A stretch of 35,386 nt of DNA from Spirochaetota bacterium (GCA_017302015.1 JAFLEE010000058.1:1-35386), one strand, 5' to 3'; counted from the first letter of the stretch, positions 2,278 to 20,491 are shown. Notes: generated from the sequence alone by a model not told the origin. Translations and numbers: made by a program.

Positions 2278-4092
2278 TTATTCGTCGCGGCAGCGGCGGT
2301 AGCCCGCTTTCAGGGCGAGGTCCGGCGTCCTGAAGAAGAGGAGGGATTCGGCGCCGAGGTCCCGGTAGCGGTCGCTCCAGGCGGCCTGGCCCGGTTCCGC
2401 GAAATTGCCTTTGCGCCGGTCGGCGATGCAGGCGTTGGATTCGAAGGCGGGGAGGGCGAGATCGCGTTCCAGGGCCGTGCGCTCCAAGCGCCGCTTCTCC
2501 AGGGCCGCGCGGAAGGCGTCGGGGGATTGGAGGGGCGGTTGGGTTTGATGGATCCCCCGGGCGTGCGAGGTGGCGAGGGTGGCCGCCGTGGCGAGGCGCC
2601 CCCTGCGGTCGCCGTCCAAACCCTCCGGCAGGGACGGCGATGGGAGGGCCCAACCCGAGGCGAGCGCCCATTCGTTTAGGCTGGCGTTACTTTCGTTCCC
2701 GGCGTCGAGGAAGCGCAGCCATGCCCGGTGCCCCGGATATTCCTCGACGCGCACGGTCCGCATGGCGAAGCGGCGCGCGACCCCTTCGCGGCAGAGGGAA
2801 GCCTGGGGTTCCTGGGAAAAGCCGGGTTCCCCGACCTCGGGGAAGGAGCATCCGAGGAGGGTGAGTTCCGCGCCATGGTTCGAGGCTTGGACCCAAAGGC
2901 GACCGGAGGTCCGCACCTCCTCCACGCGGCCGACCCAGGGGGACCGATTCGTGGCGGCGCGTTTGGAACGCCACGCCGACCAGGTGGGGAATGCCCCCGG
3001 ATTTTTTTTCCGCTCTTGGAGGAAGAGTTCATAACCGGTCCGGTCGGGGAAGCGGTTCCAGAGTTCGTGGATGCGGCTTCGGTAGGCCGCAGCGAAGGCC
3101 GGGTGCTCCAGATGGAGCAGATTTTCGGCGTTGCGGCGGTCGGCGCCGGTGGAAAAATTGAAACTTCCGGTGAACACCGCTCGGTCGTCGACCACGAGGC
3201 ATTTATGGTGCAATTTGGCCTCGCGTCCGTCGAATTTGACGTCGGCCCCCCGGCGCCACAGCCATTGGAACGGCAGGGCCTTCCAATCCTTCCACACGCA
3301 TTCCGATTCGAAGGCGTCGTCGAAGATCCCGCGGACTTGCACCTTGCGCCCGATCGCCTTCGACATCTCGGCGCTGATGCCGGGCGCGCTGAAGGCGAAG
3401 ATCAGGAAATCAAGGCGCGACTGGGCCCCCTCCACCCCGCGCAGGAGTGCTTCGGACGGCGGGGGATCGCCCGGGGAGAACCACGCCGAGACATGCCCCC
3501 CTCCCGCCCATTCCATCCGTTTGGGGAATGCGCTAGGCCTTCGCCTCGACCACGGGTCGATGAGGCGGTAAAAGGCGTCGCGATAGGCATCGGCGAGTTC
3601 CGGGTGGTCCAAACGCACCAGGTCGTTGAAGTTCACATACAGGCAATTGATCGTGAAATTCGCGCTCCCCGTGAGCACGCGGCGGCGGTCGGAGACGAGG
3701 AATTTATGGTGCATGAGACCCGGCATCTTGACCGGATAGACCGAGACCCCCGCCCGGGTCAATTTCTCGAGGCAGGTCTTATTGGGCTCCTCGCCGAGAT
3801 ACCGGGCTTCAAAGGCCAGATGGATCCGTACTCCGCGCCGGGCGAGTCGGCAAAGATCATCGGTGATCCATGCGACGTCGAGTTCATGGAGGGCCCCCAC
3901 GAGCTGCTCCCGGGTGTCCGAAAGGAAGCGCTGGATGCCTTCGTCGATGCCCCCGGCTTGCCCCGCGGGGGCGGGCCCGAAATAGATCTCCGATCCCGCC
4001 GGGAGGGGAAGGGGGGATGGCGGCGGCGTGGAAGAGGCGGCGCCCAACCAGACCGCCATGAGGAACAATGGAAGGTGTATTTTAATTACCAT
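2278..4092 (-). CDS. Secreted phospholipase-D/nuclease-superfamily protein with a nuclease-like C-terminal domain
   Basis: This is a 604-residue protein with a signal peptide of about 20 residues (MVIKIHLPLFLMAVWLGAAS). It has two complete HKD motifs. In the first, H128, K130 and D135 are followed by GSANF; in the second, H295, K297 and D302 are followed by GSFNFS. PLD-superfamily enzymes build one active site from two such motifs and cut phosphodiesters in lipids or nucleic acids. Residues about 386-500 resemble a staphylococcal-nuclease-type fold (a VxxxxxGAELTLLGCSFPEV segment, then SLNEWALASGWA), but the catalytic Arg/Glu set is not evident. A basic helical tail follows. The start overlaps the stop of the upstream barrel gene by 7 nt. 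The frame stays open upstream, but the signal peptide fixes the start. The substrate is uncertain; DNA is favoured by context. Confidence 0.85.
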   Translation of the reverse strand: MVIKIHLPLFLMAVWLGAASSTPPPSPLPLPAGSEIYFGPAPAGQAGGIDEGIQRFLSDTREQLVGALHELDVAWITDDLCRLARRGVRIHLAFEARYLGEEPNKTCLEKLTRAGVSVYPVKMPGLMHHKFLVSDRRRVLTGSANFTINCLYVNFNDLVRLDHPELADAYRDAFYRLIDPWSRRRPSAFPKRMEWAGGGHVSAWFSPGDPPPSEALLRGVEGAQSRLDFLIFAFSAPGISAEMSKAIGRKVQVRGIFDDAFESECVWKDWKALPFQWLWRRGADVKFDGREAKLHHKCLVVDDRAVFTGSFNFSTGADRRNAENLLHLEHPAFAAAYRSRIHELWNRFPDRTGYELFLQERKKNPGAFPTWSAWRSKRAATNRSPWVGRVEEVRTSGRLWVQASNHGAELTLLGCSFPEVGEPGFSQEPQASLCREGVARRFAMRTVRVEEYPGHRAWLRFLDAGNESNASLNEWALASGWALPSPSLPEGLDGDRRGRLATAATLATSHARGIHQTQPPLQSPDAFRAALEKRRLERTALERDLALPAFESNACIADRRKGNFAEPGQAAWSDRYRDLGAESLLFFRTPDLALKAGYRRCRDE

Positions 4093-5843
4093 TGGGCCCT
4101 CGCCACGAGTGAAATGGCCGCCGCGTGGTTGACGGCTCCGCCCGGAGCGCCGGTGACGGCGTAGGAGGCTCCCAATTCCCAGTCCTGGCTGGGTCGCACC
4201 ACGGCTCGGGCCGAAAGTCGGAGCGTCAAATCGGAGGCGCCGATGGGAGAGAACCAGTCTCCGACCTCGAGATCCATGCCTTGCACCCCGGAGAGGACCC
4301 ATCCCGAGAGCCGGGCTTCGAACCGCTTCCCGGGTCGCCAAACGCCCTTGGCGGAAAGGGAGCCCTGGAGCGCGTTCGTGCCATCCAATCGCGCGACTCC
4401 GGAGAGCCGAAAGATCGCCCGCGAGCCGCGCCATTCGGCTCTCCCGTCGAGTTTCGGAACGAGGTCGCCCGCCACATTGGAGTAGGCGGCGGCCACGCGC
4501 AACACCGTACGGAACCGGGCCGTGCTCGCGTAGGCGCATTCCGCCCAGAGGCTCGCGAGAAAGCGTGAAGGCGAGTCGAGGGGAGCGAAGGTGTCGCCTT
4601 CCACCCCCATGGAAGCGGACCATTCAAACCCTCGGGGAAGCGCTTTCCCGCCCTCCAACCAGGCGAACCATTCTCGGCTGGCGGGTCGATGGGTCCCGGG
4701 AGCCGCCCCATGGAGTACGGCGTACCCCGAGGATAGCCATTGCCCCCCGGCGCTCCAGCGTCCGCCCTCATGGTTTCCCGACGCGCTCCATTGAAGGGCC
4801 GGGTCGACCCGGGAGGTTTCACTGACCTCAAGGGGCCCTCCAGCCATCCCATTCGAAGGACCTGGACGGATCGAGATGGCCCCAGAGAGGCCCCAACGCC
4901 AGCCGACCTCCTCGGCGCTCAGTCCGAGGCAGATGCCCCCCATGGACCGGCCATGGAGCGCGTCGGGGTCTTCCGAAACCGAATCGGGGATGAGGGCGGC
5001 ACTGAGCTCGGAGCGAATCGCGGCCAAATCTACCTGGACACCCTTGCGCCGGAGGGTGGCGAAAAAACCGCTCACCCCCTCGGTCGCGGCATCCTTCCGG
5101 GAACGGGCCCGGTCGGTATCATGGGGGCCCGGACGCGGATCCACCGAACTGAAGAAGGGCTGCGGCGTGAGGGCATCGCCTTCTTGAACCGTGGCATCCA
5201 GGCTCATGGCCGCGGCGAACGCGCCCGCCGTCCAGATCGAATCGTTCCAAGTGACCCCGATCCCCCGAAGCGCGGCCTCGCGGAGTGATACGTCCCCATC
5301 GAGTCGGCTGGCGAGGGCGGCGTCTTGGCGGCGGCGATCCCGGGGACCCATGGCCGGAGAACCGGTGGAAAAAAGCAGGCCCGTACCGAGGCGAAGGTCC
5401 AGGTCGCCGGCGACGGCCTGCCACCTGGGCGCGAAACCGTCCCAGGCGAACGATATTTTCCCCGCATCGGGAAAGGGGCCTTCCTCCCGGCGGCGAATGC
5501 CCCCGGCATGGAAGCGAAAACGCCCCGGCGCCCGGACGAAGAGGCGCGCACGACTATCCAAACGATCCCAGCTGAGGGCCGCCAGGGCACCGCTGCGAAC
5601 GCTGCTCTCTAAAGTGACCGAGACCCCGCGGGGCCCTTCGGTTTGGCCCTCATCCCGAAAAACGGGTTCGAGCCTTCGGCGCAATAGGGCCGCTTGGTCT
5701 TCATCGGGCACGCCCTCCAGCCCGGCGTCCTCTTCCCAACCGGGCACGGGCCCCCGGGCCCGTTCGCCCATACGCGGGGGAGCGTCTGTCGGGGCCCCCG
5801 CAGCGATAAATAGGATGGGCAGGAACCCTAAAAGCGCCTTCAT
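4086..5843 (-). CDS. Large predicted outer-membrane beta-barrel protein
   Basis: This is a 585-residue protein with an N-terminal signal peptide (MKALLGFLPILFIAAGAP). Most of it is alternating hydrophobic/polar strands separated by short turns, and the last residue is the Trp of VARAQW, typical of barrels inserted by BAM. Residues about 41-66 (GLEGVPDEDQAALLRRRLEP) could be a worn-down helix-hairpin-helix unit. The block around RFRFHAGGIRR and DLDLRLGTGLLF recalls the barrels that follow ComEA-like helix-hairpin-helix domains in Bacteroidota. This family link is weak and needs a profile search. The ATG has a strong ribosome binding site (GGAGGGG) and overlaps the upstream stop as ATGA. It sits third in the overlapping LTD/barrel/barrel/PLD set. 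Confidence 0.75.
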   Translation of the reverse strand: MKALLGFLPILFIAAGAPTDAPPRMGERARGPVPGWEEDAGLEGVPDEDQAALLRRRLEPVFRDEGQTEGPRGVSVTLESSVRSGALAALSWDRLDSRARLFVRAPGRFRFHAGGIRRREEGPFPDAGKISFAWDGFAPRWQAVAGDLDLRLGTGLLFSTGSPAMGPRDRRRQDAALASRLDGDVSLREAALRGIGVTWNDSIWTAGAFAAAMSLDATVQEGDALTPQPFFSSVDPRPGPHDTDRARSRKDAATEGVSGFFATLRRKGVQVDLAAIRSELSAALIPDSVSEDPDALHGRSMGGICLGLSAEEVGWRWGLSGAISIRPGPSNGMAGGPLEVSETSRVDPALQWSASGNHEGGRWSAGGQWLSSGYAVLHGAAPGTHRPASREWFAWLEGGKALPRGFEWSASMGVEGDTFAPLDSPSRFLASLWAECAYASTARFRTVLRVAAAYSNVAGDLVPKLDGRAEWRGSRAIFRLSGVARLDGTNALQGSLSAKGVWRPGKRFEARLSGWVLSGVQGMDLEVGDWFSPIGASDLTLRLSARAVVRPSQDWELGASYAVTGAPGGAVNHAAAISLVARAQW

Positions 5844-6547
5844 GGAACCCCTCCAGGAACGAACGCGAGGAACCCTTCCTGGGTTTCACCCAGCGCGGGG
5901 TGGAATTCGGTCTGCCATCCGAGGCGTAAAGTCGCCAAGTCTACGGCGAATCCTACGGAGAACGCGCGACGATCGGGCTGCCAGGCCATGGAGCAAAGAA
6001 AGCGTTTGAAGGATAGTCCGGCGGTGGTGGTGAACCGGAGTTGACCATCCGCCCAGGCGAGTCGGACCTGGGCCCGAAATCGCCGGGCCAAGTTCCACCC
6101 GATGGCCGCCGAGGGACGAAATTGGGGCCGACCCGCCTCGAACCAACAAGCGCCGAGGAAGCCGAAAGACCACGATCCGGGATACACCAGGAACCCAGCG
6201 GCGAACTGGGTGGTCTGCGGCGCATAATCGAAACCCGCCTGGAGCCTGAAAAAACTGAGGTCGACGGCGGTCGAAGCCCCGCCGTCGAAAACCGCGCCGG
6301 AAGGGGTGTCCAGAACGCCCGCTCGGATGCGCGCCCCTGCCCATGGATGGAACTTGGCCGGGGGGGGCGCTAGGCGCCCGTTCAACTCGACTTGGGTGGT
6401 GAAATCAAGGGTCGGATTAAATCGAGCCCGCACGGCGATCCCCCGGGGCCATTCCCAAGAGGAACCGATGCGGTGGAAGAAGGGATCGGCCTCCATGCCC
6501 CAAGCCGCGGCGAAGGCCAGGAGTCCAAGTCCAAATGCGAGCTTCAA
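5840..6547 (-). CDS. Small predicted outer-membrane beta-barrel protein
   Basis: This is a 235-residue protein with a signal peptide (KLAFGLGLLAFAAAWG) followed by repeated amphipathic strands rich in Phe, Trp, Gly and Arg (for example LQAGFDYAPQTTQFAAGF). I infer an outer-membrane barrel or a periplasmic barrel-like protein; no family is recognised. The start is a TTG whose last two bases are shared with the stop of the LTD gene (TTGA). Translation therefore probably depends on ribosomes finishing the upstream gene. No later ATG would preserve the signal peptide. It ends in an ATGA overlap with the large barrel gene. The LTD, small-barrel and large-barrel products are likely made in fixed ratio and used together in the envelope. 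Confidence 0.7.
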   Translation of the reverse strand: MKLAFGLGLLAFAAAWGMEADPFFHRIGSSWEWPRGIAVRARFNPTLDFTTQVELNGRLAPPPAKFHPWAGARIRAGVLDTPSGAVFDGGASTAVDLSFFRLQAGFDYAPQTTQFAAGFLVYPGSWSFGFLGACWFEAGRPQFRPSAAIGWNLARRFRAQVRLAWADGQLRFTTTAGLSFKRFLCSMAWQPDRRAFSVGFAVDLATLRLGWQTEFHPALGETQEGFLAFVPGGVP

Positions 6548-8205
6548 GGCTTAAACTCGAGGCACCGGCGAAGGACCTCGGGCGCGCCCCCGGGGAGCCT
6601 TCGGGCGACAAGGCGGAGGGCGAAGAGCCCGGTCGGGTCGAACCCGCGGTCGTGGAGTTGTCCGAGGGAGAGGGAGTAGGCCTGACCCGGCGCCATCGCC
6701 GTCGTCGACAGCACGGGGATGCAGGTTCGACCGTCCAAACTCCACAATTCCAACGCCATTTCGATGGCGACCCGCGGGAATATCCGGGCGATTTCACCGA
6801 GGTCGCCGCGGGACACCAGATTCCGCAGCAGGATCAGATCGACGAGACCGGATGGGGCCATGGCCCCCACCGTCCCCGGGGAGGGCGGCCACAGGGGGGA
6901 GGACGGTACCCAATGGTCGCGGGCCAGGGCGGGCCGCTTGGGATCCAAGCGGTGGAGTGAATCGCCATCGACGAGGCCCCAGGCGCTCTTGCGGGTGACC
7001 GCCACATCGATGACCTGGTCCTGGTCGTCGAGAAGCACGATCCGCCCTTCTGCATAGGGGCGGAAACCGTCGATGACACCGGTTGAAGGGGAGGCGAGGG
7101 GGACGGGGGCGAGTACCCAGGCGAAGGCGTTCGTCGGGATTTCAAATGCGAAGCGCCGGGATGATTTAAGGTCGTCGCTCCACAACTCGATGGAGAAACT
7201 CCCCCGGAAGGGATTGGCCCCCGCGAGTTCCACGTAGGGAACTTCGTTACCCTCGCAGGAACGGACTTCATTGACCCACATGGTTTTCGCGAGCGGGCTA
7301 TCGAAGGGGCCCACCCAGCCGGGGACCACCCCCCAAGGTCCGCGCACGGCCTCTTCGACCTGGAAAAAACCGAGGCGATCGGGGCAAGCGACCAGGAGCG
7401 GGGATCGCCCCAATTGGAACGGCAGGGTGACCCGCGTTCCATCGGCTGATTTTTCCCCAAGGCCGTCCAACGGGACCAAGGGAAAACGTTCGCTGCGGCA
7501 GAGGGTGAGAGGACGCCCCCATTGGCGAGCGATGCGCCCCTTCGGGTCGACGAGGCGGAAATCTCCGACGACCGGCCTACCGAGCACCAAGAGCGCGGGA
7601 GCGCCGTTCCAGAAGAGTTTCGAGGGAGCATCTTCCCCGTAGGCCGTAGACTCCACGGAGGCCGCCCCCGGGGTGGCCGGACCGAGGGAACTCGCCCAAA
7701 CATCGCTGGCCTGACCCGCGTCCCGGAAAAGCCGGACCCAAGACCGACGCGGCGGGGTTTCGCCCAAAACGACACGGTCGATTTCCCGGCCATCCAAAAG
7801 GAGGCGGAGTTCATCACCCGAGGCGAGGAAACTTCCGTCAGCAAGGGATTCGCTATCGGTGGTGAGGACGGGAACCCCGGGGATTTTCGGGGCGACGGCT
7901 TCGTTCATCCCCCGGTCGAGGATCAGGCTTCGGGACTGCGCGGGCAATCCCGCGACCCCCGCGCCCCCACCGGGAGCGCCGCTGCCCGGCCAGGGAACCA
8001 ACCGTTTCATCCTCCCCGCGCAGGCGAGGGTCAGGCGGGCGCAATCGATGGGCGCCCCGTCGGGGTTCACCAGTTCGATCCACTGGCCGCGATAGCGATC
8101 GATGGGGGGGCGATGGCAAATCTCATCGATCCACGGATCGGCCACGAGGTTCACGACGAGGAGAACGGAAAGGAGAAGGCGATGATCCATGCCCCAGAAT
8201 GGCAT
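6544..8205 (-). CDS. Secreted lamin-tail-domain (LTD) protein
   Basis: This is a 553-residue protein with an N-terminal signal peptide (hydrophobic core LLLSVLLVVNLVA). Right after it, PWIDEICHRPP followed by WIELVNPDGAPIDCARLTL matches the start of a bacterial lamin-tail domain, an Ig-like beta-sandwich. A second, weaker LTD-like copy begins near MWVNEVRSCEGNEVPYVELA. The C-terminus (LWSDGR-like ELWSLDGRTCIPVL, then GLFALRLVARR) resembles FlgD-type Ig modules found at the ends of secreted proteins. LTDs occur on extracellular nucleases and ComEC-related hydrolases, though they are not catalytic themselves. ATG 8205 has GGGAAGA upstream at acceptable spacing; ATG 8190 also keeps the signal peptide but has no usable site. 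It is the first of four overlapping genes. Confidence 0.75.
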   Translation of the reverse strand: MPFWGMDHRLLLSVLLVVNLVADPWIDEICHRPPIDRYRGQWIELVNPDGAPIDCARLTLACAGRMKRLVPWPGSGAPGGGAGVAGLPAQSRSLILDRGMNEAVAPKIPGVPVLTTDSESLADGSFLASGDELRLLLDGREIDRVVLGETPPRRSWVRLFRDAGQASDVWASSLGPATPGAASVESTAYGEDAPSKLFWNGAPALLVLGRPVVGDFRLVDPKGRIARQWGRPLTLCRSERFPLVPLDGLGEKSADGTRVTLPFQLGRSPLLVACPDRLGFFQVEEAVRGPWGVVPGWVGPFDSPLAKTMWVNEVRSCEGNEVPYVELAGANPFRGSFSIELWSDDLKSSRRFAFEIPTNAFAWVLAPVPLASPSTGVIDGFRPYAEGRIVLLDDQDQVIDVAVTRKSAWGLVDGDSLHRLDPKRPALARDHWVPSSPLWPPSPGTVGAMAPSGLVDLILLRNLVSRGDLGEIARIFPRVAIEMALELWSLDGRTCIPVLSTTAMAPGQAYSLSLGQLHDRGFDPTGLFALRLVARRLPGGAPEVLRRCLEFKP

Positions 8206-8256
8206 GGGGCGGAATCTTCCCACACCGTGGGAAACCGGGGGGCTTTGACCCGGTGT

Positions 8257-9108
8257 TCAGGGCACTAAGAAGGAGCGGAGTTCAGCGAGGCGATGGCCGA
8301 GCACCTCCGCATTTTCATCCAAAGACGGGAAAATCAGGACGCTCTGGCCCACGGTGAGGAGGCTCAGTCTCCCGAAAAAAAGCCGCCCGGGGAATTGGGG
8401 CAGGGCCAGGCCGGGCTTCTGCCCCGGGCCCCCAAGGGGCAAGAGGACCGCATGCCCCCTCTGGATCGCCCGGATCGATTCGGGGAGCAGACGGATCCAT
8501 GATGTTAAAACTCGGGAAAGTTCGCGGCGATTGCGCACCCGGTCGGGGCGATGGATCATGACGGAGACCTGGCGATAGGCCGTGGCGAGGGGGTGGACCG
8601 TTTCCGAACGGGGAAGCGCCCCAGAAGGGCCGCGACCGTCCCGAGAAATGTAGAAAGACGGTAGGAATTTCTCAGGCATCCATCGCGCCTGCACCAGAAA
8701 ATGCCGAAACGACCGAGCCCCTTCCGGCAGGTGGTCGAGGCTATCCAAGCCGGAGCCGAGGCGTAGAACCTGGTGGGGGCCCGGCTCCAGGGTCGTGGCG
8801 CCCATGGCGTCGAGTTCATCGACGATTTCCAGGGAGGGCGGAACATCCTGAAGCTCGAACGCGGTGGGCGTCTCGGTGAAGCCGGCCCGCGTAAACAGGG
8901 TGCGCGCGTAGGCAAGCGCTTCTTGGGAGCCTACGCGGTGATGCCGGGGGGTTTGGAGCGCACGAAGACGCCCCCGCAGGTAACGGCGCCAGAGGGGGTG
9001 GTTATAGCCCATCGGCCCACCATCCACCCCGGCGGAAAAATCGAAAGTGCGCACGCCCGAGGCGGTGCGAAACCAGGATCCACCGGCGCGAAGGCTCTCG
9101 TTGGGCAT
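8257..9108 (-). CDS. Class-III-aminotransferase-like protein lacking the PLP-binding core
   Basis: This is a 283-residue protein. Its N-terminus (GSWFRTASGVRTFDF then GYNHPLWRRYL) matches the opening strand and the G-x-NHP turn of class III PLP-dependent aminotransferases. The end (SVLIFPSLDENAEVLGHRL) matches their C-terminal small domain. These enzymes are normally 400-450 residues. Here the segment that should carry the PLP lysine and the cofactor aspartate is replaced by shorter, unrelated-looking sequence, so aminotransferase activity is doubtful. The frame is intact, so this is a remodelled protein rather than a fresh pseudogene. It is 51 nt upstream of the LTD gene on the same strand and is probably the promoter-proximal gene of that operon. 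The start ATG has no Shine-Dalgarno and lies 5 nt after a TATAAT box. Confidence 0.6.
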   Translation of the reverse strand: MPNESLRAGGSWFRTASGVRTFDFSAGVDGGPMGYNHPLWRRYLRGRLRALQTPRHHRVGSQEALAYARTLFTRAGFTETPTAFELQDVPPSLEIVDELDAMGATTLEPGPHQVLRLGSGLDSLDHLPEGARSFRHFLVQARWMPEKFLPSFYISRDGRGPSGALPRSETVHPLATAYRQVSVMIHRPDRVRNRRELSRVLTSWIRLLPESIRAIQRGHAVLLPLGGPGQKPGLALPQFPGRLFFGRLSLLTVGQSVLIFPSLDENAEVLGHRLAELRSFLVP

Positions 9109-9113
9109 CGGAC

Positions 9114-9119
9114 ATTATA
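9114..9119 (-). promoter_or_regulatory. Probable -10 box (TATAAT), leaderless-type placement
   Basis: A perfect TATAAT on the minus strand ends 5 nt before the ATG of the aminotransferase-like gene. A start site 6-7 nt downstream would fall at the start codon, giving an essentially leaderless mRNA. This fits the absence of a ribosome binding site. No good -35 is seen at 16-18 nt. Confidence 0.5.
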
Positions 9120-9128
9120 CTTTCAGGC

Positions 9129-9134
9129 TAAAAT
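9129..9134 (+). promoter_or_regulatory. Possible -10 box (TAAAAT) for the MFS gene
   Basis: TAAAAT lies 8 nt before the proposed TTG start of the transporter. A second candidate, TATACT, is at 9116-9121. Neither has a clear -35, so this is only a suggestion within the short divergent intergenic region 9109-9142. Confidence 0.3.
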
Positions 9135-9142
9135 CCAGGCCC

Positions 9143-10390
9143 TTGGTCCGCTTCCTCTACATCCTCCCCGTCGCCTTCTTCGGATCCCTCGGCTCGACCC
9201 TCTACACCCTCGGCTGCGTGTTTCTCCTCCAGGAACGGTTCCACCTGGATGGGGCGGGGGTGGGGCAATTCGCCGCCGAGTGGGCCCTCGCTTACCTTTT
9301 CGGTTGCCTGGCTCTCTCGCGTTTCCTCGTCAAATTGCGGGTGACTTCGGCGCTCCTCCTCGCGACGGCCTCCCTGGGGCTCCTGTGGGCCGCCCTGGGA
9401 AGGGTGGATGCGCTTTGGACCGCCCATCTCATCAACCTCGGCTGCGGTCTCGTCACCGCGCTCTTCTGGCCGCCCATCATGGGGTGGGTCAGCGCGGGCC
9501 TCGAGGGGCCGAAACTCGGAAGGGGCCTCAGCTGGTACAACCTCTCCTGGAGCGCGGGCACGGTGGCGGGGCCCTTCCTCGCCGGACTTCTTAGCACCCG
9601 GGGCGTCGCCTGGCCCCTTTGGATGAGCACGGGCCTGGGCTTCGCCTGCGTGGCCATCCTGGCGCTCGCACGGTCGAAAAGCATCGACCGCAGCGCCCCG
9701 GCCCCTGGGCCGACGCCAGGGGATGCCTCCGCACCGGAGCAAAATGCCTTCATGCGCTACCTTTGCTGGATCGGGCTCTTCGCCACCCATGTGCTCGTCG
9801 GGGTGATCCTCAACGTCTTCCCGGTTTGGGCCCAGCGCGACCTCGGCTATTCCAAGGTGCTCATCGGCACGATGCTGCTCTTCAGGGCCCTGGTCACCGC
9901 CACCACCTTCTTCCTATCCGGCCGGTTCTCCTTCTGGCACCAGAAGGCCTGGCCGATCTTCGCCCTCGAGGGCCTGCTGGTGGCGACCCTCGCGGCCCTC
10001 GCCCTCGGGCCCTCTTTTCCCGGCCTCTTCGCGGGGCTCCTCTTAGTCGGTTTCACCCTGGCCGCGAGTTATGTCGAGAGCATCTTCCACGGGGTACAAG
10101 GCTCCAAAAACCGCTCGCGGCGGATGGCCATCCACGAATCCCTGCTGACCGCCGGGATCGTCGTCGGCGCTCAGGTCGGGGGCTTTCTCCTCGATCACCG
10201 GGGGATGGCATGGGTCTGGGGGGGATCGGCCCTCCTCATTTCACTGGCGATGGCCGTCCAGGCGCTCTGGGGTGGTTCTTCAAAAAAGAATCGGGCGCAC
10301 GGACCCAAGCCGCCCCGACTCCTTCCGCCTGAACCGGGAGGTTCTCAACCGATCGCGTCGCCGCCCTGTTCGCCGGTGCGGATGCGGTAG
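9143..10390 (+). CDS. MFS-type membrane transporter
   Basis: This is a protein of about 415 residues with roughly 12 hydrophobic helices in two groups of six, split by a Pro/Ala-rich cytoplasmic loop (around [15 protein letters not shown]). This is the major facilitator layout of secondary transporters. A basic segment after helix 8 and the motif [16 protein letters not shown] fit the superfamily. No specific substrate motif is recognised, so drug or metabolite efflux and nutrient uptake are both open. The start is uncertain: TTG 9143 directly precedes the first membrane helix ([14 protein letters not shown]), while an in-frame ATG at 9047 would overlap the divergent gene. The C-terminal tail is long, Pro-rich and probably cytoplasmic. 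The 3' end overlaps that of glnB by 46 nt in opposite orientation. Confidence 0.8.
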
Positions 10391-18454: not shown

Positions 18455-20491
18455 CTAATAACTGAGGATGTAGAACTCGGTGCGCCGGTTCTTGGCGCGC
18501 CCGGCTTCGGTGCGGTTGTCGGCGATCGGATTCAGCGGTCCGAGCCCCTTGGCCGTCAGGCGCTCCTGGGGAAGCCCTTTTTTGATGAGGTACTCCCGGA
18601 CCGATTGGGCCCGCCTCAGCGAAAGGGCGCGGTTGTACTCCTCGGCGCCCTGGGAATCGGTGAAGCCGCGGACCTCCACGACGAGTTTCGGGTTGGCCAT
18701 GAGGGTATCCCGCACCCGGTCGAGGATCGCCGCGGATTCGGCCAAGAGCGTCGCCTTCTCCACCTCGAAGTGGATGTTCTCCACCACGATGGACTTCCCG
18801 GTCTCGATGCGCGTGAGATAGAGCACCCGCTGCAATTGGTTGGTCCCCTTGTCCGCCGGGGTGAGGACGACTTTATTGTCCATATGCCCCTCGGCCGAGG
18901 CCAGGATTTCGGTCTCCCCGGGCCGGGGAATGGAGATCGAGGCGAGATCCTGGTTGCTCTCGATGAGTTTGCGGTCGATGATCCGCCGGTTCTCGCGGGA
19001 GATGAGCTCGACGCGGCCGAGGAGCTCGTTGCTGCGATGGTCCTTGAGTTGGAGCGAGAGCACGAGGCTGGGCACCTCGGGCTTGGGGCGGGGCGGGAAG
19101 AGGACGATCTCGAGGGCCTCGCTGCGCCGCTCGAGGTTCGTCAGCCAATTGGTCACCACGTTGGTCCGCGCCGGAACCTTCTGGATCTTGGCCTCGTCCC
19201 AGGTGCTGCCGTAGAAGTTATAGGCGATCTCCTTCGGCTGGTTCTTGGCGGGACGATTGGTGACGGTGTGGGCGCGGATGACGACATTGGTGACCCGCTG
19301 GGTAATGTTCGTCGAAACGAGCGTGCGCACCGGGGGATCGCGGGTGAACTCGAGGCTGCGCGGCGCGCCGAACCAGGCATTGCCGTCCTGGCCGACGGAA
19401 TAGAGCGTATCCCCCGTGGCCACCAGGAGCCGCCCCGAGGATGCGATGACGCCACGGGGCGGTTCTTCGCCGGGACTGCTCCACTCGAAGACCGAGCGTC
19501 CCGAACCGAGGTCGATCCCCGTCAATTGGTAGCGCGCCTTCCCGCCCTCTTCCTTCCCCGGTTGGACGATATAGGCGCTCTCCCGGATGACCGCGAGGCC
19601 GGAGGCGGGAACCGCCTTGGCGGGGATCGACCGAAGCCGCTTCCCGGTCTTGCCGTCGAACGTGGCGAGCGACCCGTCTTGGAGCAGGAGGACCACCGCT
19701 CCATCGCCGTAGACCACGGGTTGGTCCGCGGCCGCCGCCCCTAGGGGCTCATTGAAAACGGGGGAACCGTTGGAAAGGGCGAAGGCCGCGAAGCGGTCCC
19801 CGCAGGCGAGAAAGATCCGGTCCCGGAAGATGAGGGGGGCGGTGACGGGGGACCCCTTCGGGAGGGCTTGGTTCCAACGGTATTGGGCCTGGGCGAGATC
19901 TAGCGCGCGGAGCGTCGCTTCCTCGCCTTGGCGCGAGACGAGGTAGATGCCGTCTCCATAGGGGATGGGGAAGGGCGCCCCGGGCCGCAAATCGATGGGG
20001 GGCCGTTGGGGGCGCCCATCCTTGAGATTGAGGAAGAGGAGCCGGTTCGGCGTGCCGACGAGCAGCATCGTCCCGTCGGCCGCGAGGAAACCCTCGAGAC
20101 CCTCGGGGACCTCGGCGCTCGCCCACAGCAAGGTTCCCCGGCGGCGATCGTGGCAGACGACCCGCCGAGCTTCTCCCGTGAGGAGCCGTTCCCCAACGAG
20201 GAGAATGGGCCTCGTCACATTGGATTCGATGCGCCGCTTCATGCGCAAGTCGCCGGTCTCTTCGTCCACGCGGTAGAGAAAACCCCGCAGGGTGGTGAAG
20301 TACATGAACCCGTCCACCGCGATGGGGGTGTGGATGGCCGAATCGGCCTTGAGGGAAAAATAGGCGCGGTTCGTGGAGGGAACCGCATCGTCGTTATTTC
20401 CGGTGAAGTACATGTTCCCGCGGTAGAGCGGCCAATCCGCGGCCATCAGGGAAACCGCGGAAAGGAAACAGGCCAGAAGGAAGGGCTTCAT
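18455..20491 (-). CDS. Secreted beta-propeller protein with C-terminal OmpA peptidoglycan-binding domain
   Basis: This is a 678-residue protein. The signal peptide covers residues 1-17 (ending SLMA). Residues about 18-385 contain PQQ-enzyme-like propeller blades: WPLYRGNMYFTGNN at the start, then repeated units of the type DGFMYFTTLRGFLYRVDEETGDL. A Thr/Asn-rich linker and a beta-sandwich region (about 470-560) follow. The last 120 residues are an OmpA-like domain (IHFEVEKATLLAES, then VRGFTDSQGAEEYNRALSLRRAQ, then NRRTEFYI) that binds peptidoglycan. It probably anchors a periplasmic propeller to the cell wall. No PQQ cofactor residues or BamB-type context are evident. Its ATG overlaps the plsC stop (ATGA). 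Its 3' end is 3 nt from the convergent regulator gene. Confidence 0.88.
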   Translation of the reverse strand: MKPFLLACFLSAVSLMAADWPLYRGNMYFTGNNDDAVPSTNRAYFSLKADSAIHTPIAVDGFMYFTTLRGFLYRVDEETGDLRMKRRIESNVTRPILLVGERLLTGEARRVVCHDRRRGTLLWASAEVPEGLEGFLAADGTMLLVGTPNRLLFLNLKDGRPQRPPIDLRPGAPFPIPYGDGIYLVSRQGEEATLRALDLAQAQYRWNQALPKGSPVTAPLIFRDRIFLACGDRFAAFALSNGSPVFNEPLGAAAADQPVVYGDGAVVLLLQDGSLATFDGKTGKRLRSIPAKAVPASGLAVIRESAYIVQPGKEEGGKARYQLTGIDLGSGRSVFEWSSPGEEPPRGVIASSGRLLVATGDTLYSVGQDGNAWFGAPRSLEFTRDPPVRTLVSTNITQRVTNVVIRAHTVTNRPAKNQPKEIAYNFYGSTWDEAKIQKVPARTNVVTNWLTNLERRSEALEIVLFPPRPKPEVPSLVLSLQLKDHRSNELLGRVELISRENRRIIDRKLIESNQDLASISIPRPGETEILASAEGHMDNKVVLTPADKGTNQLQRVLYLTRIETGKSIVVENIHFEVEKATLLAESAAILDRVRDTLMANPKLVVEVRGFTDSQGAEEYNRALSLRRAQSVREYLIKKGLPQERLTAKGLGPLNPIADNRTEAGRAKNRRTEFYILSY

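Follow-up and report, generated by a model that had tools for sequence, protein, structure and literature searches.

The stretch of DNA analysed here, 35,386 nucleotides from a Spirochaetota bacterium (GCA_017302015.1, JAFLEE010000058.1:1-35386; hereafter the window), carries on its minus strand a tightly packed cluster of four genes for putative envelope proteins. In the order in which they would be transcribed, these encode a protein with lamin tail domains (LTD), a small barrel (SB), a large beta-barrel (HB) and a PLD:

6544 to 8205, minus strand: LTD-type secreted or surface protein, 553 aa, with an alternative GTG start at 8223
5840 to 6547, minus strand: SB, 235 aa, TTG start; a putative member of a PorV-like family, without helix-hairpin-helix (HhH) domains
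4086 to 5843, minus strand: HB, 585 aa, ATG start; an HhH-less member of an HhH-barrel family
2278 to 4092, minus strand: secreted PLD with two HKD motifs, 604 aa, ATG start, with a C-terminal SNase-like domain

The genes overlap at every junction, by 4 nt between LTD and SB (TTGA), by 4 nt between SB and HB (ATGA) and by 7 nt between HB and PLD. Each of the four proteins begins, by eye, with a hydrophobic signal-like stretch, and all four genes show the codon-position pattern GC3 > GC1 > GC2, which matches that of neighbouring real genes and is missing from long antisense open reading frames. The overlaps had been described in an earlier note made from the sequence, which took them to imply coupled synthesis; they are confirmed, and a coupled operon of envelope proteins is supported.

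Comparison with 345 genomes of the phylum Spirochaetota (designated below by G numbers) indicates by homology that LTD, SB and HB in the window are a divergent version of a three-gene outer-membrane module, which is ancient in this phylum and in part common to Bacteroidota. The window's own genome (G000; 5.4 Mb, 93% complete assembly) is the sole member of its family among those searched. The most extensive evidence comes from the family of G182 (f21; 20 genomes), where the SB of G182 is present in 19 genomes. At all 19 loci SB is flanked by LTD upstream and HB downstream, all three on one strand, with junctions that mostly overlap or are separated by a few bases, while the outer flanks vary between genera; we judge that this conservation of order far exceeds chance. 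The same fixed, single-strand order is seen as LTD-SB-HB in G182 itself, as LTD-LTD-SB-HB in G014 and G005, and as SB-HB in G034, G015 and G026. A profile of six HB relatives found the window barrel and some 17 other genomes with the barrel part, and an LTD search of the phylum returned matches in G162 and G146. The window genes have the order and strand of the module (LTD, SB and HB adjacent), and their products match the module orthologues at E=1.7e-9 for HB and E=3.7e-5 for LTD, with a weak match for SB.

The complete set of four families recurs on contig C3 of G162 (locus L044), where PLD (13357-11579) comes first rather than last and is followed by LTD (11582-9636), SB (9634-8804) and HB (8807-6765), with junctions of -4, +1 and -4 nt. 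In G146, PLD stands alone and LTD and HB lie at contig ends; G003 has PLD alone, and no full-length PLD homologue was found at any of the 19 f21 loci. The co-occurrence proposed as a check in the earlier note was thus found for LTD-SB-HB, at no fewer than 22 other Spirochaetota loci, and for all four genes in G162. The idea that the four genes form one conserved system is not supported: PLD is accessory, sharing an operon with the core in two genomes only. The widespread unit in Spirochaetota is the three-gene core, of which the four-gene set is a rare and derived form.

By homology, the SB-HB part of the module is common to Spirochaetota and Bacteroidota. HB matches Bacteroidota sequences annotated as helix-hairpin-helix domain-containing proteins (e.g. 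WP_121956131.1) over 81% of its length at E=6e-21. In Parabacteroides distasonis an SB homologue (profile E=4.7e-29) lies 13 nt upstream of HB (E=3e-73) and keeps the HPxLG motif described below as YHPILG; Bacteroides finegoldii has HB without SB. The Parabacteroides locus differs from the spirochaete module in having no adjacent LTD gene, and no function for the Bacteroidota barrel was reported in the papers found. A literature search found no description of the LTD-SB-HB module and no paper connecting LTD, HhH and the outer membrane; the single paper found with both PorV and HhH named them as unrelated regulated genes.

The window LTD protein consists of two diverged lamin-tail-like regions and a C-terminal Ig region resembling those of FlgD and of type IX secretion system C-terminal domains (CTDs):

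7798 to 8130, minus strand: first LTD-like region, residues 26-136 (BLASTP against the G162 LTD, E=9e-5)
6592 to 7314, minus strand: second LTD-like region plus the C-terminal Ig region, residues 298-538 (hhalign against the LTD family alignment, E=3.7e-5)

Against the Pfam lamin tail family (PF00932) the protein falls under the gathering cut-off (12.2 versus 34.3 bits, E=0.25). Its G162 orthologue, which it matches at E=1.8e-6, scores 72.3 bits, and its relatives score on Pfam LTD at E=5e-20, down to 2e-22. The LTD proteins of G162, G146, G014 and G005 have one or two lamin tail domains, some with a C-terminal FlgD/CTD-like Ig domain. In f21 the LTD gene product shows no LTD by Pfam and was assigned through homology. 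From these sequence comparisons, the window LTD is a strongly diverged member of the family.

The small barrel is only weakly recognisable, and one feature that ties it to its family lies near the end of the barrel:

5888 to 5905, minus strand: FHPALG motif of SB, counterpart of the HPxLG found near the SB barrel end in Spirochaetota and Parabacteroides

Window SB has no match in Pfam or to the PorV/PorQ family NF033709, and a plain profile search was not significant. Its weak profile and alignment scores against the family are reached by 1 of 2000 and by 0-2 of 300 shuffles; HPxLG occurs anywhere in 0.2% of shuffles, and near the C-terminus in 0.035%. A position-specific scoring matrix of the entire SB C-terminal motif failed to single out the window motif, so window SB is assigned to the SB family, tentatively, from its HPxLG, its global alignment and its position, with the shuffle tests in support. 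Its orthologues are clearer: those of G014, G026 and G005 match NF033709 at E=7e-14, 4e-16 and 1e-5, all under the 90-bit curated cut-off, and in each, HhH domains of the ComEA type (TIGR01259, E=1e-24 to 1e-30) come after the barrel. The SB of the G182 family has one HhH domain (E=1e-7 to 1e-10). A scan of genome contigs with the PorV part, which gave weak patterns, brought back the two source records only; HB offered no conserved stretch for such a scan.

The PorV-like character of the SB orthologues raises the alternative of a type IX-like surface display system, in which LTD/Ig cargo would be exported through an SprA-like translocon and held by SB as its dedicated PorV-like barrel, with HB as an accessory. 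The HhH domains would then be structural, the surface protein would be an adhesin or scaffold, and DNA would not be the ligand. The LTD C-termini, which resemble FlgD_ig (7.5e-10), T9SS sorting (1.8e-4) and CHU_C domains, fit this scheme, as do SprA-like open reading frames of about 1900-2300 aa in G000, G162, G142, G014, G005 and others, and further pairs of CTD cargo and PorV-like barrel in G005 and G146. However, all SprA matches fall under the family cut-off, Pfam did not find the SprA domain, and the scheme leaves unexplained why ComEA-type HhH recurs on two proteins of one operon. The SB relatives also differ from PorV/PorQ in their added HhH domains and strict pairing with HB, and a type IX system is only partly seen. 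We regard such display as rather unlikely to be the whole explanation, yet as a serious alternative or complement, since display could itself serve DNA uptake. The type IX system was reported in 2016 as confined to Bacteroidetes (PMC4793230), and the literature search found no report of a spirochaete SprA.

The giant open reading frames themselves (1886-2289 aa) match the SprA model TIGR04189 below its cut-off (E=1e-14 to 1e-21) and include L166:2174-9043 (contig C16 of G000; 2289 aa, E=3.8e-14), L169:4882-11499 (G162) and L168:4255-9915 (G142). Elsewhere, L069:5095-9260 and L073:12727-15001 each combine a large protein bearing a C-terminal Ig/CTD-like domain with a PorV-like barrel, which suggests a recurring cargo-PorV arrangement.

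The large barrel has no Pfam match, and its homology to the HhH-barrel family is seen with the HB of G162 as query (E=8.7e-7), with the six-relative profile given above, and at E=1.8e-7. The similarity includes one block:

4926 to 5546, minus strand: conserved block of the HB barrel, residues 100-306, including GDLDLRLGTGLLFSTG, the counterpart of G.Y.L.FGQGL.F.SG

In G014, G005 and G162, HB opens with a ComEA-like HhH before the barrel (HHH_3, E=1.5e-19, 4.7e-9 and 3.9e-6). It had been suggested that the window barrel may carry a helix-hairpin-helix remnant. The stretch LEGVPDEDQAALLRRRLEPVF resembles half an HhH by eye; the family HhH hidden Markov model (HMM) assigns it no score, and we rejected it as a remnant, none being detectable by Pfam or the family HMM. 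An AlphaFold model of window HB had a pLDDT of 37, and was therefore too poor for a fold search. Families f6 and f24 contain standalone HB-like barrels of about 600 aa without HhH (L112, L113, L114, L116-L120), neighboured by a conserved protein of about 365 aa and an exonuclease-like gene; these neighbours are unrelated to the module, and the barrels were treated as paralogues.

The PLD that ends the window operon matches Pfam PLDc_2 at E=2.9e-37 and contains three features:

3658 to 3711, minus strand: HKD motif 1, HHKFLVSDRRRVLTGSAN
3157 to 3210, minus strand: HKD motif 2, HHKCLVVDDRAVFTGSFN
2623 to 2904, minus strand: SNase-like (OB-fold) domain, in which the catalytic Arg/Glu/Arg set is not conserved

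Three full-length relatives were found (G003, G146 and G162; E<=1e-60) along with many shorter PLDs, and both HKD motifs (HxKxxxxD) are invariant in an alignment of the four full-length members. Positions 379-515 of the family profile match the SNase domain of SND1 (4qmg) at E=6e-9. Pfam SNase (PF00565) is found in the G003 homologue at 1.1e-8 and weakly in those of G146 and G162, and gave no match to the window PLD alone. As judged by eye from the alignment, no member has the complete catalytic set Arg35/Glu43/Arg87: the window stretch TLLGCSFPE lacks the first Arg, and the other members lack the Glu and the second Arg. In SND1 the SNase domain serves as a binding module, and the incomplete catalytic set in all members makes this probable here as well.

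A secreted PLD-type nuclease had been predicted for this gene, and the closest sequences to the family profile are indeed nucleases (Zucchini/mitoPLD, Nuc (1byr) and NucT), with which, as with PLD3/4, it shares HKD motifs, fold and an apparent secretion signal. It differs from them in its decayed C-terminal SNase-like domain, an extra C-terminal segment and its operon context. An AlphaFold model (pLDDT 64; only the PLD lobes usable) resembles both a bacterial PLD (7e0m) and the single-stranded DNA exonuclease PLD3. The likeness of the single-chain two-HKD fold to 7e0m and to phosphatidylserine (PS) synthase, and weak matches to cardiolipin synthase profiles, would suit an enzyme of cardiolipin or phosphatidyl transfer in an operon that remodels the outer membrane. 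The better sequence match to nucleases, the SNase-like domain, and the absence of PLD from the core operon in nearly all genomes make this lipid-modifying role quite improbable. The probable activity of the window PLD is cleavage of nucleic acid, either on the cell surface or within the periplasm, that would serve uptake or scavenging. Elsewhere among spirochaetes, the PLDs of families f21, f27, f40 and f46 are short, their matches include no SNase region, and they lie beside a different conserved gene. The contexts inspected for shorter PLDs were unrelated to the module, and we rejected these proteins as parts of it; in several spirochaete families (L048, L050-L055) a short secreted PLD of about 340-400 aa is paired with a conserved gene of about 320 aa.

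ComEA binds double-stranded DNA and helps to draw it into the periplasm, and ComEC moves DNA over the inner membrane (PMC6299819). The module shares with this machinery the ComEA-type HhH domains (TIGR01259, HHH_3) of the SB and HB orthologues, and ComEC is encoded in the same genomes, including 18 of the 20 in f21 and G000 (contig C100, E=2e-38). It differs in that the HhH domains are fused to outer-membrane barrels rather than belonging to a periplasmic protein, whether free or anchored in the membrane. The strongest HHH_3 matches in f21 are SB and a protein of about 730-770 aa, which from its length and HhH content we take to be the RNA-binding protein Tex; weaker matches occur in further frames, and only G022 among the f21 genomes has a distinct small HhH protein (a frame of 112 aa). 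Most simply, SB would perform the ComEA role from an outer-membrane barrel, with HB as its partner barrel and LTD at the surface.

The model that we favour, at a confidence slightly short of even, is that LTD-SB-HB captures extracellular DNA at the outer membrane and hands it to ComEC. In the ancestral module, the exported LTD/Ig protein would sit at the cell surface, the PorV-like SB barrel would bear its ComEA-type HhH domains into the periplasm, and HB, which in many cases has a ComEA-type HhH at its own N-terminus, would act as an outer-membrane channel or receptor. Captured DNA would then pass on to ComEC, the channel in the inner membrane. In the window lineage, both barrels have lost their HhH domains and the two-HKD PLD, with its inactive SNase-like OB domain, has joined the operon, where it may have assumed nucleic-acid handling. 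We are less certain of DNA capture for this HhH-less copy.

Several observations weigh against this model. No HhH was detected in window SB or HB by Pfam or the family HMM, nor was a ComEA-type HhH found elsewhere in G000, where the only HHH_3 match is a 400-aa frame resembling a radical SAM protein. The DNA idea of the earlier note is partly supported, by the ComEA-type HhH domains on orthologues of both barrels and by the closeness of the PLD to nucleases and its SNase-like domain. ComEC is present in 23 of 24 Spirochaetota tested, and this near-universality means that its presence is not specific to the module. Secretin in 12 of 16 core-bearing genomes tested indicates that a conventional or other outer-membrane route may exist. 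HHH_3-like folds also occur in proteins that do not bind DNA, and GspK and PsbU profiles score too. Finally, G003 has PLD but not the core, in G146 PLD and core are not linked, and the fold neighbours of PLD include phospholipases.

The loss of all HhH alongside the gain of PLD-SNase could also reflect a nutritional system in the window lineage, in which PLD cuts extracellular DNA, LTD binds it and the barrels import nucleotides or short oligonucleotides, with no role in transformation. The four-gene cluster of G162, with PLD first, fits this too. However, the G162 HB retains its HhH and no nucleotidase or transporter genes are linked, and we consider pure nutrition improbable.

Around the cluster, a spiro-SPASM protein gene (TIGR04321, 355 bits) is a neighbour and indicates a Spirochaetota host. 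A 283-aa open reading frame at 8257-9108 (minus strand), 51 nt upstream of LTD, has no Pfam match; its N-terminus resembles a decayed class III aminotransferase, and its start overlaps a divergent MFS gene (9047-10390, plus strand) by 62 nt. Further away, 18455-20491 (minus strand) encodes 678 aa, with a long N-terminal region of PQQ-like repeats (by eye) and a C-terminal OmpA domain.

A comparable set of components is known from Riemerella anatipestifer, where transformation requires a surface protein, an outer-membrane barrel and an HhH protein (RA0C_RS04915/04920/02645), in a model that its own authors call speculative (PMC8459023). The likeness to the module is drawn as an analogy of composition; the Riemerella set differs in having a barrel of the TonB type with a carboxypeptidase-regulatory domain and a DUF5689 protein.

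To our knowledge, the route of DNA across the outer membrane is unsettled in Bacteroidota and most spirochaetes. More tentatively than DNA capture itself, and with the balance of probability against it, LTD-SB-HB may represent a third outer-membrane apparatus for DNA import, besides PilQ/type IV pilus and ComB/type IV secretion systems, with HhH built into the barrels, a distribution across Spirochaetota and Bacteroidota, and a dedicated surface PLD nuclease gained in two spirochaete lineages. If this is true, the module would show where the ComEA function resides when a spirochaete encodes ComEC without a separate ComEA. A conserved operon that joins ComEA-type HhH to outer-membrane barrels also offers identified genes that can be tested in Parabacteroides, a gut bacterium amenable to culture.

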